This document shows positions 43,438 to 51,194 of a stretch of DNA of 64,000 bases, in pieces. Every line of letters begins with the position of its first letter. The stretch's first letter is position 1. This stretch comes from Aquimarina latercula DSM 2041 (GTDB lineage Bacteria > Bacteroidota > Bacteroidia > Flavobacteriales > Flavobacteriaceae): positions 1-64,000 of the forward strand of contig NZ_AUMK01000010.1 in NCBI RefSeq assembly GCF_000430645.1. The letters are read 5' to 3'. The position numbers and the translations under genes were made by a program. Below the pieces are notes generated by a model. The model ran no database searches, was not told where the DNA came from, and was given only the letters and a program-made list of their open reading frames with translations.

Positions 43438-44106
43438 TTAGATTTGTTGATTTCTCACAAATATTTGATTCTCTATTGCATGAATTACCAAACCAGCAAT
43501 ATTCTTAGATCCTGTTTTTACTAATAAATTATTACGATGTCCTTCTACCGTTCGTGGGCTAATAAACAACTGTTCTGCAATTTCTGTAGTTGTTTTCTGC
43601 TCACATATCAACTTTAGAACTTCCCTTTCTCTGCTGGTCAAATACTCACTATCTCTGGTTTTCTTTTTTGATTTTAAAGAAGCTTCTTCTAAAATGCTCA
43701 TTACATTATCATCATAATAGAATCCTTTAATAGCCACTTGATTTATAGTATTTATAACTTCTGTAGGTGTTGCATTTTTGGCAAGGTAAGCAACAGCTCC
43801 CTGTTGTATCATGTTAATGATAAATGGCTTGCTATAATAACTTGTTAGCGCGATGATCTTAATTTCCGGGAATTTCTTTTTAACAATTTTAGTTGTTTCT
43901 ACTCCATTAAGATCGGGCATTTTTAAATCCATCAAAATGACCTCTGGTAATTCTTTGGAAAGATTTAATTGTTTTACTAAATCATTACCATTTTCTGCTT
44001 GTATGCAAATTTCTATATTATTCTCTTTATCCAGAATAAAAGTAATCCCTTGTCTAAATAATGTTTCGTCATCAGCAATAGCCAATTTTATAATGTCTTT
44101 CTTCAT
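43438..44106 (-). CDS. NarL/FixJ-family response regulator
   Basis: The 222-residue product has a receiver domain (about 5-125) with the acidic pair Asp12-Asp13, phospho-acceptor Asp60 in VILMDLKMPDLNG and a TSYYSKPF segment. A LuxR-type helix-turn-helix follows (about 150-215) with LTSREREVLKLICEQKTTTE and FISPRTVEGHRNNLLVKTG. Phosphorylation should be by the kinase encoded just upstream, whose stop overlaps this start by 4 bases. The target genes are unknown; the two small paralogues of this cassette are candidates. Confidence 0.93.
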   Translation of the reverse strand: MKKDIIKLAIADDETLFRQGITFILDKENNIEICIQAENGNDLVKQLNLSKELPEVILMDLKMPDLNGVETTKIVKKKFPEIKIIALTSYYSKPFIINMIQQGAVAYLAKNATPTEVINTINQVAIKGFYYDDNVMSILEEASLKSKKKTRDSEYLTSREREVLKLICEQKTTTEIAEQLFISPRTVEGHRNNLLVKTGSKNIAGLVIHAIENQIFVRNQQI

Positions 44107-44909
44107 TTCTTAGGTTTTTTAGTGCTAATAGTAAACATTGCTCCATTACCGATTTCACTCTGGTAAGAAAGTATCCCATTGAGTATTTCTACTCTACTTT
44201 CTATATTCTTAAGTCCAATTCCCTTGTTTATATTTATGGATTGTATATCAAATCCTTTCCCATCATCAGAGTATTCTATAATTAGTTCTTTATCGTCTTC
44301 ATTAATATTTAAAACTACATTAGCCGCCTCACCGTGTCGAACTGAATTATTTAATAACTCCTGAATAATCCTGAAAATATGCAATTCATTGTTTTTAGAA
44401 AAAAAATCATGGTATACAACAGTGTAATTTACTTTTAATTTTTTGCTGCTGATAAATTCATCACAAAGTTCTTCTATAGCAGCTTGCAATCCAAAATTTT
44501 CTAAGATTGGAGGTAATAAATTATGCGCCAATCTTCTTGAACTTTCTAAAGTTTTTGTAGTAACTGATAATATATGTTGTAATGTTTGCTCCTGTTCTTC
44601 TTTATTTAATTTACCATCTATTAAGACATTGGTACTAAGGCTAACCACATTTAGTTTGGCACTAATAGCGTCATGCAAGTCCTGTGCAATGCGCTTACGT
44701 TCTTCTTCTTGGGTTTCTATAGTACCGTGGATTAAATCTCTTTGATAAGAGATTGCCATATTGGCTTTTTCTAGCTCTGCAGCAACGATTTTTTTACGAG
44801 AAAAGAAAAAGAAAAGCACTAATGACACCGCCATTAATAATAATACCATAATCGCTATCAAAATAACCACTATAATCTGTGAATCTTCTTGTAGTAATTC
44901 TTTCTCCAT
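44103..44909 (-). CDS. NarX-type sensor histidine kinase with one membrane helix
   Basis: The 268-residue product has one membrane helix (about 11-36), a coiled linker, then a HisKA_3 domain with the phospho-acceptor His79 in RKRIAQDLHDAISAKL. An HATPase_c domain follows (about 170-265) with LNNSVRHGEA (N box), DDGKGFD (G1) and GIGLKNIESRVEIL (G2). The periplasmic part is negligible, so sensing likely depends on the membrane region or on the polytopic protein encoded by the preceding gene, which overlaps it by 40 bases. Confidence 0.92.
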   Translation of the reverse strand: MEKELLQEDSQIIVVILIAIMVLLLMAVSLVLFFFFSRKKIVAAELEKANMAISYQRDLIHGTIETQEEERKRIAQDLHDAISAKLNVVSLSTNVLIDGKLNKEEQEQTLQHILSVTTKTLESSRRLAHNLLPPILENFGLQAAIEELCDEFISSKKLKVNYTVVYHDFFSKNNELHIFRIIQELLNNSVRHGEAANVVLNINEDDKELIIEYSDDGKGFDIQSININKGIGLKNIESRVEILNGILSYQSEIGNGAMFTISTKKPKK

Positions 44910-45511
44910 TCAATAAAGATTAGGATTTGAAATAAAAAGTATAATATACGATTTGTATTAATCAATAAATAGTTCATTGACTCAGAAATATCCAAATTAA
45001 AAATCAAATTACCCGATGCAAATATTAAAGTACTGGAAATCAAATACAAAAACAATCCTACATTTATAATTAAAAATAGGTTTTGTCCCTGTAAACATCT
45101 ATATAAATAGATTATGGAATATATAATTAACACACCCTGAGTTATGGAAATACCAATCGCATTATACCTAAAAAAAAGACTCGGATCCTCTATATATTGA
45201 TAAGTTAAAAAACCAAGAAACGGTATTATTAAATAAGTTATCCACTTATTTTTTAAAAGTTCTTTATAAAAAATAGAAAGAAAAATAAATTGTACAACTA
45301 AATAAAAATGTGATAGAAATAAATTGGGTTTATGCAAAAATTTACCAACATAAAGTGTTATTAGTTGAATAACACAAGTTAAAAACAAATAAATAGTAAA
45401 TATTTTAAAGGCTTTATTGTTTTCAATAAAGCCTTTAAAATAAAAATATGCGTTCAATATCAATAGAAATATTGTCGCTACGCTAAAATATAAAAAATAA
45501 TTAGTATTCAA
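44870..45511 (-). CDS. Polytopic membrane protein, possible sensor partner of the kinase
   Basis: The 213-residue product has about seven hydrophobic helices (first MNTNYFLYFSVATIFLLILN, last NRILYFLFQILIFIEW) with short charged loops and no motif I recognise. The topology resembles 7TM sensory modules found in Bacteroidota next to kinases. It overlaps the kinase start by 40 bases and lies 9 bases after the first small paralogue gene, so it is very likely co-expressed with both. A sensor role is inferred from context only. Confidence 0.65.
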   Translation of the reverse strand: MNTNYFLYFSVATIFLLILNAYFYFKGFIENNKAFKIFTIYLFLTCVIQLITLYVGKFLHKPNLFLSHFYLVVQFIFLSIFYKELLKNKWITYLIIPFLGFLTYQYIEDPSLFFRYNAIGISITQGVLIIYSIIYLYRCLQGQNLFLIINVGLFLYLISSTLIFASGNLIFNLDISESMNYLLINTNRILYFLFQILIFIEWRKNYYKKIHRL

Positions 45512-45520
45512 TTTATAACA

Positions 45521-45943
45521 TTAATTCAAAGGACTATTAGAATCGCATTCAGGAGGACAAGGATTTGTGAAATCATACACTCCACTCGTCGAGGGATCTG
45601 ATGCCGATGATTTTAACGTAGTCGGAGTAATACCATCAATAGTACCATCAATAATATCTCTGTTAACTCCATCTACATTTTCTGTTCCTACAAAAATTAT
45701 TTTTTCTGTATTACTATCATCAATCGCTAAATATCCTCTTATTTTAGAATTCAGATTATTAGCATTCGCTTGAGCTTGAGTAGCCGTAGCATCATCTAAT
45801 ACACCAATTTCATTTAATACTTCTACAAAATCTACAGCAGGTATCAAAAAAGCATTTACAGTATTAGGATGTTGAGATCTCCAATTTGCTGTCCATTGCG
45901 CACCAGTATCTTTAGGGATTGTGTTTTCGTTATTTGAATTCAT
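45521..45943 (-). CDS. Small paralogue A with conserved C-terminal CPPECD tail, 140 aa
   Basis: The product has no signal peptide. It starts with an acidic stretch, then WTANWRSQHPN, NAFLIPAVDFVEVLNEIGVL, a strand pair with RGYLAIDDSNTEKIIFVG, and ends YDFTNPCPPECDSNSPLN. It is paralogous to the gene at 45974-46435: the middle blocks align and 18 of the last 20 residues are identical. The two cysteines of the tail are the only ones. Related small proteins with a Cys-containing tail occur in Bacteroidota as far as I recall, with no function given. It directly precedes the membrane protein gene. Confidence 0.75.
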   Translation of the reverse strand: MNSNNENTIPKDTGAQWTANWRSQHPNTVNAFLIPAVDFVEVLNEIGVLDDATATQAQANANNLNSKIRGYLAIDDSNTEKIIFVGTENVDGVNRDIIDGTIDGITPTTLKSSASDPSTSGVYDFTNPCPPECDSNSPLN

Positions 45944-45973
45944 TTTTTATTTAATTTAAATTAGTAATAACAA

Positions 45974-46435
45974 TTAGTTAAGTGGGCTATTAACATCACA
46001 TTCTGGAGGGCAAGGATTCGTGAAATCATATATTCCACTGCTAATAATAGGATCTCCAAAAAAGTTTAATTTCACTTTATCCCCATCAATTTCTTCATTA
46101 ATGATATCTTGATATACTCTTGTTTTTCGATTGTACTTAGTTCCCACTACTAATAACTTTTCTTCAGGAGTTTCATCTGGACTATCATTACCAATTGCCA
46201 TATATGCTCTTACTTTCTTACCGTTAAGACAAGCCTTTTGCTGCGCTTTTTTTGCTACTTTATCACTTAGCAATCCCATTTCGTTTAGAACCTCTATCAA
46301 ATCGACTGCAGGCATTAAAAAAGCATTACACGGGTTTACTTGTGGATTTTTAGGATCTTGGTATTTTTCTCTCCAAGCGGTTGTCCATTCTTTTGCAGTT
46401 TCAAGTGTTACTGTGTTTTGTAAATCAGGATTCAT
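45974..46435 (-). CDS. Small paralogue B with conserved C-terminal CPPECD tail, 153 aa
   Basis: The product lacks a signal peptide and follows the plan of paralogue A: EWTTAWREKYQDPKNP, NAFLMPAVDLIEVLNEMGLL, VRAYMAIGNDS, LLVVGTKYN, DIINEEIDGD, then YDFTNPCPPECDVNSPLN. It has a Lys-rich insertion around residues 65-75 and two extra cysteines. The DNA of the tail differs at many third positions from the other copy, so the shared peptide is kept by selection and is not a recent duplication. It is the first gene of the five-gene cassette, 30 bases before paralogue A. Confidence 0.75.
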   Translation of the reverse strand: MNPDLQNTVTLETAKEWTTAWREKYQDPKNPQVNPCNAFLMPAVDLIEVLNEMGLLSDKVAKKAQQKACLNGKKVRAYMAIGNDSPDETPEEKLLVVGTKYNRKTRVYQDIINEEIDGDKVKLNFFGDPIISSGIYDFTNPCPPECDVNSPLN

Positions 46436-46679
46436 TTTTGTTTTCCTTTTAAATTAGTAATATGATTAAAATAAGCTTACAAAATATGGAGTATGGGTAT
46501 GTAAATAAACATCTAACAAAAATCTTTTAGCAGATAATTCTAATAAAATAGATTTAAATTAAATGTCCCTAAATTTATAATAAATACAACTTAAATCGTG
46601 TAGTAAATATGAAAAAATTATTTACTTCATATAACAAAACCCTTCTTTTAACTGAAAATCAAATAAATAACAATAACTT

Positions 46680-48002
46680 TCAGGAACTATGGGTAGTTTC
46701 TCTAGAATCTATAAAAGAAATTGGTTTACGACTCATCTCTGGGAATTTTTTAGCTTTTAATGCTTCTTTAGAGTTCAATACCAGATCTGGTACTACTCTA
46801 AGGTTTGCTCGTAAATGTTCTTTTAACTCTTTTTGTCGTAAAGCACTTAGAGAATCTGAAATATGAATCAATAATTTATCGGTTCCTAAGTCGCCAATAA
46901 CTACTTCAATTATATACATTCCCAATCCTTCAAAACTTGTGAGTACCTCGATCACACTTTGCGGATATAAAGTAGTCCCTTTATACTTAATCATATGCTT
47001 CTTTCTACCCAAAACTGGACTTAAACGCATGGTTGTTCTACCACATTTACAAGGCTCATGATGTGCTTGTACCATATCACCAGTAGTATATCGTAATAAA
47101 GGCATCGCTTCAATACCTAAGGTAGTAATCGCTAACTCTCCTACTTCACCTTCTTCTACTGCATTACCATCTTCATCTAAAATCTCTGCGATAATCAATT
47201 CTGGGCGATGATGTCCTCCTCTATGTTCTGCACATTCTGTAAATGCAGTACTCATTTCTGTAGATGCATAAGTAGAATATAGATCTATATCCCACTTCTC
47301 CTTAATCTTACTGCCTAAAGTATTTAAATTAAAATCCTGATCTCTTAAAGGTTCTCCGATACAAATCGCAGCTTTAACCGAAGAATTTTGATAATCAATC
47401 CCGTGGGCTTCCGCATAGGAAATTAACTTTAGTAAAAAAGAAGGTACTACCACTAAATAGGTAGACTGAAAACGCTCTATAGAATCCCATTGTAATTCTG
47501 GAATTCCTGATCCCACACGAACCATTGCTGCTCCTAACTTTCTGGTTCCCAAAAAGTATGCAAGACCCGCCATAAATCTTCTGTCCAAAGTAGTAGTCAA
47601 CTGCACCACATCTGTTTTGGTTACTCCTGCTGTTTCGAAAGAAGTTGCTTCATTATACGCTAATCTTTGTAGATCTTTCTCCGTTAGTGCAAACGTAACC
47701 GGCTTCCCTAAGGTTCCAGAAGTAGTCACATAATCTACAATTTCTGATTTAGGAACACATAAAAAATCATCGTTATATGCCTGTAAATCGTCCTTGGTAG
47801 TAATAGGAAGTTTTTTAAGATCATCAACGGTTTGGATATCTTCTTTAGAAATACCCAGATTAGCAAACAATCTTTTATAATACGGAGAATATTGAATAAC
47901 AAAATCGATTAACTCTAGAAGTTTTTCATTCTGAAGATTCGATATTTCCGCTGGTGTAGATTGTTCTATATGTTGAGTCATTAACTTATATTTTTCGTTC
48001 AC
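46680..48002 (-). CDS. Phenylacetate-CoA ligase-like (PaaK-type) adenylating enzyme
   Basis: The 440-residue product has the PaaK-type adenylation motif YVTTSGTLGKPVTFALT, then STYASTEMSTAFTEC, LRYTTGDMVQAHHEPCKCGR and the C-terminal GRKKHMIKYKGTTLYPQS. The Cys-x-Cys cluster in the third motif is typical of PaaK. Such enzymes activate aryl or fatty acids as CoA or ACP thioesters. It overlaps the end of the C45 gene by 17 bases, so it belongs to the pigment operon and is its last gene. An aryl starter or fatty acid is a plausible substrate; that is inferred. Confidence 0.85.
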   Translation of the reverse strand: MNEKYKLMTQHIEQSTPAEISNLQNEKLLELIDFVIQYSPYYKRLFANLGISKEDIQTVDDLKKLPITTKDDLQAYNDDFLCVPKSEIVDYVTTSGTLGKPVTFALTEKDLQRLAYNEATSFETAGVTKTDVVQLTTTLDRRFMAGLAYFLGTRKLGAAMVRVGSGIPELQWDSIERFQSTYLVVVPSFLLKLISYAEAHGIDYQNSSVKAAICIGEPLRDQDFNLNTLGSKIKEKWDIDLYSTYASTEMSTAFTECAEHRGGHHRPELIIAEILDEDGNAVEEGEVGELAITTLGIEAMPLLRYTTGDMVQAHHEPCKCGRTTMRLSPVLGRKKHMIKYKGTTLYPQSVIEVLTSFEGLGMYIIEVVIGDLGTDKLLIHISDSLSALRQKELKEHLRANLRVVPDLVLNSKEALKAKKFPEMSRKPISFIDSRETTHSS

Positions 48003-49653
48003 ACTTCCTAATGTATTTCTCTATATTCTTTACATCAGGAACTGTAGTTACCTCTCTTTTCTGTGCTTGTTTAAAAGCTATCAAAGCTTTCTTATATTCT
48101 TTTTGCACATAATAATATTCTCCTAGTATATAATACGTCGCCCAATAATTAGAGTTTAAACTTTGAAATTTTAAAAGTTCGTCCTCTGAAATCTTTTCTT
48201 CATTATTAATAGCGCTTTCAATTTTTCTACTTAATATTCTAAAAGCTTCATAATTGGCATATGTTTTAGTATAAATAAACTGATCTTCGGGAACATTTAA
48301 AGATTCTGTAGCAATCACTATTTCTTCTTTTTGTTGTTTCATTCTTCCAAAAACATCATCAAGATCATAGGCTACAAATTCTCCCATCTGATATGGATTA
48401 GTAGAAACCCATACTTTACGTTCTTCAGGTTGAAAAACAATACCGTGGTGTGCTAGCATCTGGTTCAATGCTTTTTCATTACCGTATCCTATCAATTTGT
48501 CATCGAGACCATCTCTATTTCTCAATATTGCTACTGCTTTTTCTGGAGTTAACTTATCATTTTCGAATAGTAACTCTGTCATTCGCTGATATCTATAAAA
48601 AGAATGGCTCTCTTCTATAGCTTTTTGATTGCGTTTATCTTGTGTATAAGAATCACTCTGAAAATGATTAGAACAAATCAATTGGTTTGTATTTGGTACC
48701 TTATACACTCCAAAATTATCAGGAGAAACTTCTATCAGTGCGGCCCTTTTATCCTTAGCACTACCAATCATAATAGATTCTGAAACAAACACTTCTCTTT
48801 TCTTTGCTATTTCGATAGCTTCATCGATAGTAGACGCATATTGTAAAATCTCTCTTGTTAGAATCGATATTGGGGTCTTTGCTATCAATGGAATTTTAGA
48901 TTTACCTGCATTAATAGTAACCGTTAGTCCTTCTTCATTCATTCCTGATAGTGCTCCCATCATTCCGGCCCATCCATAAGTCATAAATTTATAACCCTCA
49001 GAAGGGTTCATAAAAGTCACTAATTTTTCTTTAGAAAAGTCATCTCCCGCATAGAAATCAAAATTACGTCCTATTAACAATTTTCCATCAACTGTTTTGT
49101 CATCCCAAGCGGCAAAAGACGTACAACCGACTAACATCAAATCTTGTAATGCGTGCCCAATATCATGTGCTCCGTGCGCATATAACATTCTTACATAAGG
49201 TTCCGCAAAATCATTATAATCATTCGATGCATATCTGGAAACTCCATAAATTTCTGTTTTGTACTCTTCTGGAACATTTAAATGTAACTTTCGATTATAC
49301 CAAGCTACAATTTTACTCAAGAATTTAAGGTAACTTTCTGAAGGAATCAATTCCGTTATTTTTCCAATAAAAGCATCTTCTTGAATTTTAATCAATTCTC
49401 GACTCAAACTTCCAGCTGCCACTCCTCGTTCGAGTGGCTTACCTTCTAAATACATTTCCCATAATCCTTGTTTATTCTTTCTAAGCAGATTATTGTTTAA
49501 TGTAAAAAAAGTTTCACTGTGTTTTATCCGAGTAGTATCTACATTTTCTATTCCAGAAATATCTGGTTTTGCAGCCAATGATTTCTTAACACCACAGGAA
49601 GAAAACAAGATGACAATAGATATAAAGAAAATATGATAACAAATATTTTTCAT
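47986..49653 (-). CDS. C45/NAAA-like autoproteolytic acyltransferase/hydrolase lipoprotein
   Basis: The 555-residue product begins with a lipoprotein signal (ILFSSCG, Cys about 20). The Ntn-hydrolase centre is GCTSFAAWDDKTVDGKLLIG followed by RNFDF, with the nucleophile at about residue 177. In this family (C45, acid ceramidase and penicillin acyltransferase relatives) the chain is cut before that Cys. Residues about 480-555 are TPR-like (YYILGEYYYVQKEYKKALIA). It should act in the periplasm on an amide or ester bond. It lies within the pigment operon, overlapping the ligase gene. Confidence 0.85.
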   Translation of the reverse strand: MKNICYHIFFISIVILFSSCGVKKSLAAKPDISGIENVDTTRIKHSETFFTLNNNLLRKNKQGLWEMYLEGKPLERGVAAGSLSRELIKIQEDAFIGKITELIPSESYLKFLSKIVAWYNRKLHLNVPEEYKTEIYGVSRYASNDYNDFAEPYVRMLYAHGAHDIGHALQDLMLVGCTSFAAWDDKTVDGKLLIGRNFDFYAGDDFSKEKLVTFMNPSEGYKFMTYGWAGMMGALSGMNEEGLTVTINAGKSKIPLIAKTPISILTREILQYASTIDEAIEIAKKREVFVSESIMIGSAKDKRAALIEVSPDNFGVYKVPNTNQLICSNHFQSDSYTQDKRNQKAIEESHSFYRYQRMTELLFENDKLTPEKAVAILRNRDGLDDKLIGYGNEKALNQMLAHHGIVFQPEERKVWVSTNPYQMGEFVAYDLDDVFGRMKQQKEEIVIATESLNVPEDQFIYTKTYANYEAFRILSRKIESAINNEEKISEDELLKFQSLNSNYWATYYILGEYYYVQKEYKKALIAFKQAQKREVTTVPDVKNIEKYIRKCERKI

Positions 49654-51194
49654 TATGACTCGGATAGTTCTTTTTCTGCCAAAGTATCTTTTATTCTTTG
49701 TAATAAATGTTCTTTACCCACTAATTCTCCACAAGTAACTACTGCGCTTATCGTTACTCCTAGTACTCCGTGCATATTTAATCCTTGACCAGTAAATAAC
49801 AAATTAGGAATCCTAGTTCTTGGTGATAAAAATGATTTCATTGGATTATCTGCATCCTTTACAAAACCATACATAGAACCCTCATAACAGCCTATATAAT
49901 CTCTATAAGAAAGTGGTGTAGAAGTATGAACAGATTTAATACAAGATCTAATATTTGGATATTTTTTTTCTATTTCTTTTAAATAAGCTTCAATTTTACG
50001 TTGCTTAAATGCTTCATAATCTTCTCCTCTATCATTCTTTTCTGCAACTGTATTAAAGGTATGACTCCAAGGTTCCATTTCATCGAATCGCATATAAGCA
50101 ATTGAAGTCAAATTTTCTGCATAACCTGGGTTTTTGAGATCTTCATTGGTCGTAAACATATATGCTTCTGGCCAATTCTCTTCGGCATAATCCTGAGTGG
50201 TCCATACTTGATCAAATGTTTTAGTATGGTAGTAGTTTTTATTGATATAAGGAAATGTTCCTTTTTCGAAAACTATATATAAACTGAAAGAAGAAATTAT
50301 ACTTTCTGTATTCTGAATTCTCTTATAATATAATTTTCTAAATCTTTCTTTACCAACAATCTGTAATGTAAGTTTTGGATCTACATTAGAGACAAAATTA
50401 TCTGCATAAAAAGTATCTCCTTTGGTAGTGGATACAGAAACTAATTGATCTTCTTCGAAATTAAATTTATTTACTTCTTGGTATTTGTAAATTTTACCTC
50501 CAAGTGCTCTAAATCTTTTTACTAATAACTTAGCAATCTGACTTCCTCCCTGAATACATCTCCAAGCACTTTCCATATATGAATTAACGGATAATGCATG
50601 AACATAAAATGGTGTTTTTTCTGGGTTTCCTGCATATAGCAAATTAGAACCAGCGAGTACAGCTCTTAATTTAGGATCTTTAATAATACTATTTATATAA
50701 TCCTTGGCCTTTAGTGTTAATAGGTCCTCTCCATAATATCGATCTCCTTCATTTAAATTATACAATGGAAATCTATAACAAGTATCTTTTACCTTATCTA
50801 CATACTCTTGAATCCCTTTTTCTTCTTCTGGAAAAAACTTTACTAGCTGTTTTACAAAATTATCATATCCCTGTGCATGTGGGTATTCAAATTCGTCATC
50901 ATCAAAAGTAATGACGTCATACGCATCGATATCCATTCTTTTAAGTTTTAGATCATCCATAATATCTAAATACTTAAAATACTGATATAGATTCTGGCCT
51001 TTATCTAAACCGCCTATATAATGAATTCCTGTATCGAAAATACTTTTATCTCTAACAAAAGTCTGTAAGTTTCCTCCGAATTGATTGTTCTTTTCTAATA
51101 CACATACTTTCTTACCTTCTTTAGCAAGAATGTTTGCAGAAACCAATCCACCTAATCCACTCCCAATGATAATGACATCAAATTTTTCTTGCAT
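49653..51194 (-). CDS. Phytoene-desaturase/retinol-saturase-like FAD oxidoreductase
   Basis: The 513-residue product has a dinucleotide fold at the start (VIIIGSGLGGLVSANILAKE, then CVLEKNNQFGGNLQTF) and a C-terminal FAD closing segment (LFTGQGLNMHGVLGVTISAV). These are the marks of the CrtI/CrtO/retinol saturase group. It may desaturate or saturate double bonds in the polyene or act on a lipid substrate. Carotenoid genes such as crtB are absent from the window, so it is more likely a pigment-cluster tailoring enzyme than a carotenoid one. It overlaps the C45 gene by 1 base and ends the MMPL gene by 3 bases. Confidence 0.85.
   Translation of the reverse strand: MQEKFDVIIIGSGLGGLVSANILAKEGKKVCVLEKNNQFGGNLQTFVRDKSIFDTGIHYIGGLDKGQNLYQYFKYLDIMDDLKLKRMDIDAYDVITFDDDEFEYPHAQGYDNFVKQLVKFFPEEEKGIQEYVDKVKDTCYRFPLYNLNEGDRYYGEDLLTLKAKDYINSIIKDPKLRAVLAGSNLLYAGNPEKTPFYVHALSVNSYMESAWRCIQGGSQIAKLLVKRFRALGGKIYKYQEVNKFNFEEDQLVSVSTTKGDTFYADNFVSNVDPKLTLQIVGKERFRKLYYKRIQNTESIISSFSLYIVFEKGTFPYINKNYYHTKTFDQVWTTQDYAEENWPEAYMFTTNEDLKNPGYAENLTSIAYMRFDEMEPWSHTFNTVAEKNDRGEDYEAFKQRKIEAYLKEIEKKYPNIRSCIKSVHTSTPLSYRDYIGCYEGSMYGFVKDADNPMKSFLSPRTRIPNLLFTGQGLNMHGVLGVTISAVVTCGELVGKEHLLQRIKDTLAEKELSES

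Follow-up and report, generated by a model that had tools for sequence, protein, structure and literature searches.

Why do two neighbouring small proteins, much less alike over the rest of their length, end in almost the same C-terminal tail, directly upstream of a seven-helix membrane protein, a histidine kinase and a response regulator? The question is posed by five genes at positions 43438 to 46435 of the stretch analysed here, the first 64,000 nucleotides of contig NZ_AUMK01000010.1 of Aquimarina latercula DSM 2041 (the window). A preliminary description had proposed a five-gene cassette whose small proteins might be a ligand, cargo or effector read by the membrane protein and the kinase. 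The open reading frames (ORFs) were confirmed, all on the minus strand. We favour, with moderate confidence, the answer that the five genes form a ligand–receptor two-component system, in which the tail of the small proteins (the S family, here P1 and P2) would be the ligand and the membrane protein T its cognate receptor, coupled to the kinase K and the regulator R. This answer is carried by gene order across the phylum, covariation of tail and T, parallel changes in the two tails and the seven-helix prediction for T; no support was found for a cargo or effector role.

45974..46435, minus strand: P2, first small protein (S family), 153 residues, without signal peptide, C-terminal tail YDFTNPCPPECDVNSPLN
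45977..46030, minus strand: P2 tail, 18 codons
45521..45943, minus strand: P1, second small protein (S family), 140 residues, C-terminal tail YDFTNPCPPECDSNSPLN; mean predicted local distance difference test score (pLDDT) of the model 84
45524..45577, minus strand: P1 tail, 18 codons, the part of S that covaries best with T among related genomes
44870..45511, minus strand: T, seven-helix membrane protein and proposed receptor, 213 residues, N-out/C-in by positive-inside counts, with a helix arrangement like that of G-protein-coupled receptors (GPCRs) in the model
44103..44909, minus strand: K, HisKA_3 histidine kinase; the sequence shows a single hydrophobic helix at the N-terminus, and no separate sensor domain gave a match
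43438..44106, minus strand: R, response regulator of the receiver plus LuxR/GerE type

The genes run in the order P2-P1-T-K-R and the space between them is too small for further genes. The 9-base gap between P1 and T and the overlaps of T with K (40 bases) and of K with R (4 bases) were as first described; the five tightly packed genes are probably one operon. K matches HisKA_3 (3.9e-10) and HATPase_c (3.3e-11), R matches Response_reg (2.1e-21) and GerE (1.1e-15), and the two are an ordinary HisKA_3/NarL-type two-component pair. Sequence comparison shows the N-terminal part of K to be short and conserved. No significant match to P1, P2 or T was found in Pfam or NCBIfam, and none in PADLOC.

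In the mechanism we propose, the C-terminal tail of the S proteins would serve as ligand and T, a chain separate from the kinase, as the cognate receptor that sets specificity. T would relay its occupancy to K, a kinase nearly devoid of a sensor domain, which in turn would phosphorylate the LuxR-type regulator R. Matched ‘types’ would be set by a few tail residues together with the sequence of T, and tail and T would diverge jointly from one species or strain to the next. Direct binding of the tail to T, the side of the membrane, the direction of the response and the phosphotransfer are what we infer in this scheme.

P1 and P2 are 47–48% identical overall, and 18 of their final 20 residues agree. 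Nine of the 18 tail codons are identical, eight differ synonymously and one non-synonymously; the likeness is thus at the protein level and not the result of recent DNA copying. Gene conversion was considered as its source and is unlikely in view of the eight synonymous differences, although a tract of one or two codons may have been converted. The tail forms the very end of S, with a core of [YF]D...PCPxxC in most proteins and [YF]D...PSPP[YF] in part of a second genus, g51. The preliminary description took the tail to be under selection as a peptide. Only over long distances is the core more conserved, its positions then ranking with the best-conserved columns (3.00 versus 2.24 bits per column). 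At short range the tail does not change more slowly: the ratio of non-synonymous to synonymous differences (pN/pS) among close relatives is similar for tail and body core, at 0.19 and 0.12 in the window genus (six overlapping pairs) and 0.17 and 0.19 in g51 (16 pairs). The preliminary description had named an equal rate of change in tail and body as a refuting result, and at short range this outcome was seen; we attribute it to a few tail positions that vary between types while the core is fixed.

The S and T genes keep company far beyond the window. A search with P1 found matches at an E value of 0.01 in 23 of 140 genomes of relatives, two of them weak (6e-4 and 4e-3) and probably due to chance; plasmid and phage collections held no P1 homologue at the same threshold. 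S is present in 105 of 219 genomes of g51. In a draw of 395 genomes from 171 genera of the Bacteroidota, a profile of 43 S proteins matched 47 genomes in 22 genera, and one of 42 T proteins matched at least 52 genomes in at least 27 genera, a floor given that mostly seven candidates were scored per genome. The draw gave 87 clusters, of which 80 were fetched as regions of about 10 kb; the seven omitted all had S and T hits. In one set of 49 entries (two loci being entered twice), S lies directly upstream of T in 48, and the remaining entry stops at a contig end. The same order is seen in 114 of 114 loci of the window genus and g51. Among the 55 fetched regions with S, a polytopic ORF adjoins in 54, the exception being a region where the contig ends; K is found in 50, R in 50 and both in 48. 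The preliminary description would have been refuted by a tail family usually found apart from kinase genes; this was not the outcome. Eight of the 54 polytopic ORFs were missed by the T profile, yet have four or more hydrophobic stretches. A further 24 regions were found through T alone: 17 contain K and R, and in 15 the upstream ORF has a Pro/Cys-rich tail by a loose pattern. One of the 80 regions matched neither profile. Tandem forms also occur, namely S-T-S-T-K (L179), S-T-S-T-K-R (L181) and S-T-T-T-K-R (L176).

Some side observations belong here. The window’s own genome holds a second S-T-K-R locus (G000:C1:513416-516326; L133 3671-6581) whose S has 265 residues and ends in SSPCPPTCPEA. 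Extra seven-helix relatives of T were noted at L148 and L152, with no S or kinase gene alongside, and as far T hits in G624, G730 and G704. At L207 (G663:C49) two consecutive T genes enclose a short S-like hit, as might result from duplication or capture of an S-T pair.

Within the window genus the tail follows T and the body does not. Partial Mantel tests over 22 loci (L007, a near-copy of the window, being excluded) gave r 0.42, p 0.0005 for tail against T given body and K, and r 0.015, p 0.44 for body against T given tail and K. A second test used the first ten tail residues and permuted labels inside groups of three or more related kinases. It covered 107 loci of the two genera (7 of 114 were dropped), of which 33, 57, 72 and 85 were grouped at cut-offs of 0.15, 0.2, 0.25 and 0.3. 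At the three higher cut-offs r for tail against T, with body and K accounted for, was 0.47, 0.43 and 0.49 (p 0.001 each). The values for body against T at the four cut-offs were r 0.19, 0.21, 0.15 and 0.20, with p 0.25, 0.088, 0.069 and 0.007. Scanning along S, the tail window has the strongest correlation with T given K (0.50). The segments of T that follow the tail best are the outer N-terminus (residues 1–12, 0.50), helix 2 (0.41/0.37), residues 73–84 (0.37) and residues 25–36 (0.36).

Sister loci illustrate the same relationship. L010 and L011 are 95% identical in body and 90% in K, their T proteins are 46% identical and their tails read YDVTNPCPPF and YDFTTPCPPD. L226 and L189 are 98% identical in both K and body and 67% in T, with tails beginning YDGT and YDGS. 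Of the g51 T types, 13 comprise at least two loci; six of these 13 have a single ten-residue tail, none of the six exceeding two loci, and the type with six loci has YDGARPSPP[YF] in all. The pair L207/L208 had been taken for a counter-example (T 49% identical, same tail), a figure that came from the farther of the two L207 T genes; the correct T is 81% identical. L207 falls in no kinase group, and the within-group results are unaffected by the choice of its T.

Such covariation might arise with no functional link at all, if adjacent tail and T were replaced together by recombination. The tail end of S does lie near T (gaps of -98 to 65 bases in 48 loci), and T has been exchanged between sisters. 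In four overlapping ten-column windows of S just before the tail, however, the correlation with T is close to nil (-0.13 to 0.10), an argument against simple DNA linkage as the source, and the S-T pair has been kept across the phylum. The second copy is also telling. Tail position 5 of P1 and P2 is N/N in the window, D/D in L003 and E/E in L004; position 10 is E/E in the window and S/S in L003 and L004. The serine codon at position 10 is TCT in P1 and AGT or AGC in P2, the glutamate codon GAA in both window copies. Most simply, the same residues arose in both copies through separate substitutions. The P2 tail, which lies beyond the conserved P1 body, thus shifts with the P1 tail while using different codons, contrary to what joint replacement of adjacent DNA would give; we regard that explanation as very improbable. 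In G006 and G038, too, the ordinary S has the same residue as a membrane-anchored copy (L/L and S/S). The two S copies within a genome seem to answer to a single partner.

The structure prediction for T has seven helices with a mean pLDDT of 91. Counts of Lys plus Arg per segment, from the N- to the C-terminus, are 0.12, 2.55, 0.86, 3.00, 0.93, 1.83, 0.50 and 4.05, and indicate an N-out, C-in topology. The model was superposed on 1000 solved chains preselected with Foldseek, and the best 50 were all GPCRs, GPCR-like domains or a designed GPCR-like fold (Z 12.3–13.9; for the best, Z 13.9 and a root-mean-square deviation of 4.0 over 202 residues), Z values near the range that helical bundles can reach by chance. 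Foldseek alone gave a best E value of 0.2, with a zinc transporter and rhodopsins also among the matches. Since such scores are borderline for helical bundles, we describe the predicted arrangement of T as GPCR-like and make no claim of kinship. For P1 the model has a mean pLDDT of 84, falling to 65–76 beyond residue 100, tail included, and no convincing structural match to its fold was found (best Foldseek E value 0.55, best Z 3.2).

T could alternatively process or export the tail, with K or another protein as the receptor, much as AgrB and AgrC are separate proteins in agr. A polytopic protein that adjoins S and varies with tail type would fit that role. K should then follow the tail type, yet tail against K given T and body gave 0.15, p 0.13 in the window genus, and K has little outside the membrane. 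The 22 best-conserved columns of T moreover contain no conserved Cys/His/Ser/Asp set, one Ser excepted, so T does not look like a protease. We consider this alternative improbable.

On the ligand–receptor reading we favour an encounter of tail and T on the periplasmic side, given the N-out topology of T and the export signals of several S relatives; a simple hydropathy rule finds such a signal in 7 of 58 S hits. P1 and P2 themselves lack the export signal of a pheromone precursor: in agreement with the preliminary description, inspection by eye shows no signal peptide in either, and open frames of 141 and 159 codons could not accommodate one further upstream. The absence of an export signal from P1, P2 and 51 of the 58 hits is what would be expected if S were instead an intracellular adaptor or inhibitor. 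T would then sense an outside signal, and the S tail would dock on its cytoplasmic face and gate K, as the tail of a G protein docks in a GPCR. Covariation of tail and T would be expected equally, and some of the covarying T segments are at inner loops (residues 25–36 at 0.36 and 133–144 at 0.33). The strongest segment is nevertheless the outer N-terminus (0.50), and S relatives with a lipoprotein or membrane-anchor N-terminus (L016, L031, L056 and the seven hits with an export signal) retain the tail; both points weigh against the adaptor. We take this to be the main rival, though an unlikely one.

Several points weigh against the tail as ligand of T. The 51 S hits lacking an export signal leave a periplasmic encounter unexplained. 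An all-pairs test in g51 with full gapped tails (91 loci, less seven for length, one with no recognised tail and three near-duplicates, leaving 80) gave r -0.09 for tail against T given body and K, and r 0.40 for body against T given tail and K. The within-group design was picked after this failure and its p-values are exploratory; at a cut-off of 0.15 it gave only r 0.25, p 0.063 for the tail (33 loci), and at 0.3 the body also correlates with T at p 0.007. A body hairpin (AIDDSNTEKIIFVGT) is second in the scan along S and covaries with T at 0.43–0.47. Tails and T types do not pair strictly: of 60 ten-residue g51 tails, 7 are shared by two or more T types (by five in the case of YDGTRPSPPY), L224 and L240 both carry YDGTRPSPPY with T only 58% identical, and one g51 T type includes five different tails. 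Seven of the 55 S regions have no K or R within the stretch read, an extra T distant from the S-linked T occurs in 3 of 12 genomes checked, and the seven-helix loci L148 and L152 stand without S and without K. The preliminary suggestion of a ligand read by the seven-helix protein and kinase is thus partly and indirectly supported, by synteny, by tail–T covariation and by the parallel changes, with the all-pairs test against it; the ligand–receptor covariation that marks peptide-pheromone two-component systems was found in the window genus and at three of the four cut-offs of the within-group test, and not in the all-pairs test.

In or beside some loci there are lipoprotein paralogues of S, about 245 residues long, with a signal peptide and the tail, in at least 14 of 219 genomes of g51 and at least 13 of 66 of the window genus. 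The tail was considered as a mobile tag on unrelated bodies, an idea set aside because two stretches matching the S profile were found in every one of the 22 lipoproteins of alignment A4. Compared over ten residues, none of 23 lipoprotein tails (two taken from incomplete proteins) is the same as that of the resident S and 14 are the same as the S tail of another genome, a comparison of one against many that is no proof of avoidance. Avoidance of the own tail is not provable, since only 0.45 exact matches would be expected among the 19 g51 lipoproteins if they were independent of S. Tails of lipoprotein and S from one genome are slightly more alike than those of random owners (7.00 versus 6.46; 4.5% of shuffles as high). 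The lipoprotein tails are drawn from a common pool and hardly track the resident S. In contrast, P2 and the anchored copies match the resident S tail at 10, 9, 9, 10 and 10 of ten positions. The window genus has a second locus type, and there the lipoprotein tail again differs from that of S in the four genomes in which both were readable (G014, G044, G050 and G004). G624 has five tandem lipoproteins with five tails beside one S-T pair (L232, G624:C1:3480146-3487496), and one distant T besides.

The surface lipoprotein export signal is given in PMC5080379 as C-X-K-(D/E)2 after the lipobox cysteine. By a loose pattern, K or Q followed by D/E is found near this cysteine in 18 of 22 lipoproteins; the strict motif is mostly incomplete, commonly CQKEN. 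Surface exposure of these proteins is a guess from the sequence. A phylum-wide form of self/non-self signalling could be imagined, in which a cell’s own tail type is read by the GPCR-like T and exported lipoproteins (up to five per genome) display the tails of other strains so as to address, jam or mislead neighbours; we put this forward tentatively, as possible but doubtful.

In G601 (L291, G601:C19) a tail-bearing lipoprotein was seen, and the 3.7 kb fetched around it contain none of S, T, K and R; this genome may be sender-only, and it is also absent from the genomes with an S hit in the g51 search. The lipoprotein lies beside the dnaB-like gene that borders the S-T-K-R locus elsewhere in g51. 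In the window’s own genome no A4-type lipoprotein was found, the best hits there being the tails of P1 and P2 besides chance matches. In G026 (L313/L030), very closely related to the window, a lipoprotein paralogue has a reading frame that stops before the tail.

The next gene upstream of the cassette, 46680-48002, is the flexirubin gene FlxY, an acyl-CoA ligase, with a match over the cut-off. Flexirubin-type genes extend over 46680-51194 of the window, FlxY being accompanied by a C45 acyltransferase-like protein and a CrtI-like oxidoreductase, the last two under the cut-off. The S-T-K-R locus has other neighbours in g51, so the cassette does not look like a part of flexirubin synthesis. No exporter or protease gene was found among the ORFs neighbouring the cassette or among the eight proteins scanned across 43438-51194.

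Bacteroidota are a dominant phylum of sea, soil and gut, and we know of no peptide signalling system of this kind established in them. A search of open PMC papers, with preprints outside its scope, found no description of such a system among the titles and abstract openings listed. To our knowledge the S and T families, the logic of tail types and the lipoproteins with foreign tails are undescribed, whereas the two-component output is of an ordinary kind. A candidate receptor of GPCR-like arrangement lies next to a histidine kinase, the candidate ligand is defined, sister strains supply natural variants of type, and look-alikes with signal peptides carry foreign tails; together these features make cell–cell recognition in Bacteroidota directly testable.

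Several known systems are comparable. The 7TMR-DISM proteins are bacterial seven-helix receptors linked to kinases. T differs from them in having no match to PF07695 at E values up to 1 and in not being fused to an output domain; when its profile was compared with that of one member scoring above the cut-off in the same genome, the probability was 0.5%. In UhpC-UhpB-UhpA a separate polytopic sensor works with a HisKA_3 kinase and a LuxR-type regulator, UhpC being a transporter homologue that senses sugar phosphate. The layout here is alike, and K matches the UhpB model at 101 bits, under the cut-off of 408; unlike UhpC, T has seven helices and no transporter match in the Pfam and NCBIfam scans. 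The T model superposes on the helix bundles of GPCRs, no sequence relation to them was found, and coupling here would be to a histidine kinase. In the peptide-pheromone two-component systems of Firmicutes (agr, ComQXPA and ComCDE; PMC8895600) a small ligand gene likewise lies beside receptor, histidine kinase and response regulator, and ligand and receptor likewise vary together in types. Unlike in those systems, the candidate ligand here is the C-terminus of a conserved, folded and mostly leaderless protein, the polytopic receptor is separate from the histidine kinase, and no exporter or protease gene was seen in the locus. RRNPP propeptide/receptor pairs (PMC10075063) share the adjacency of a communication protein and its cognate receptor; their receptors are intracellular, whereas the proposed receptor here is a seven-helix membrane protein working with a two-component pair.

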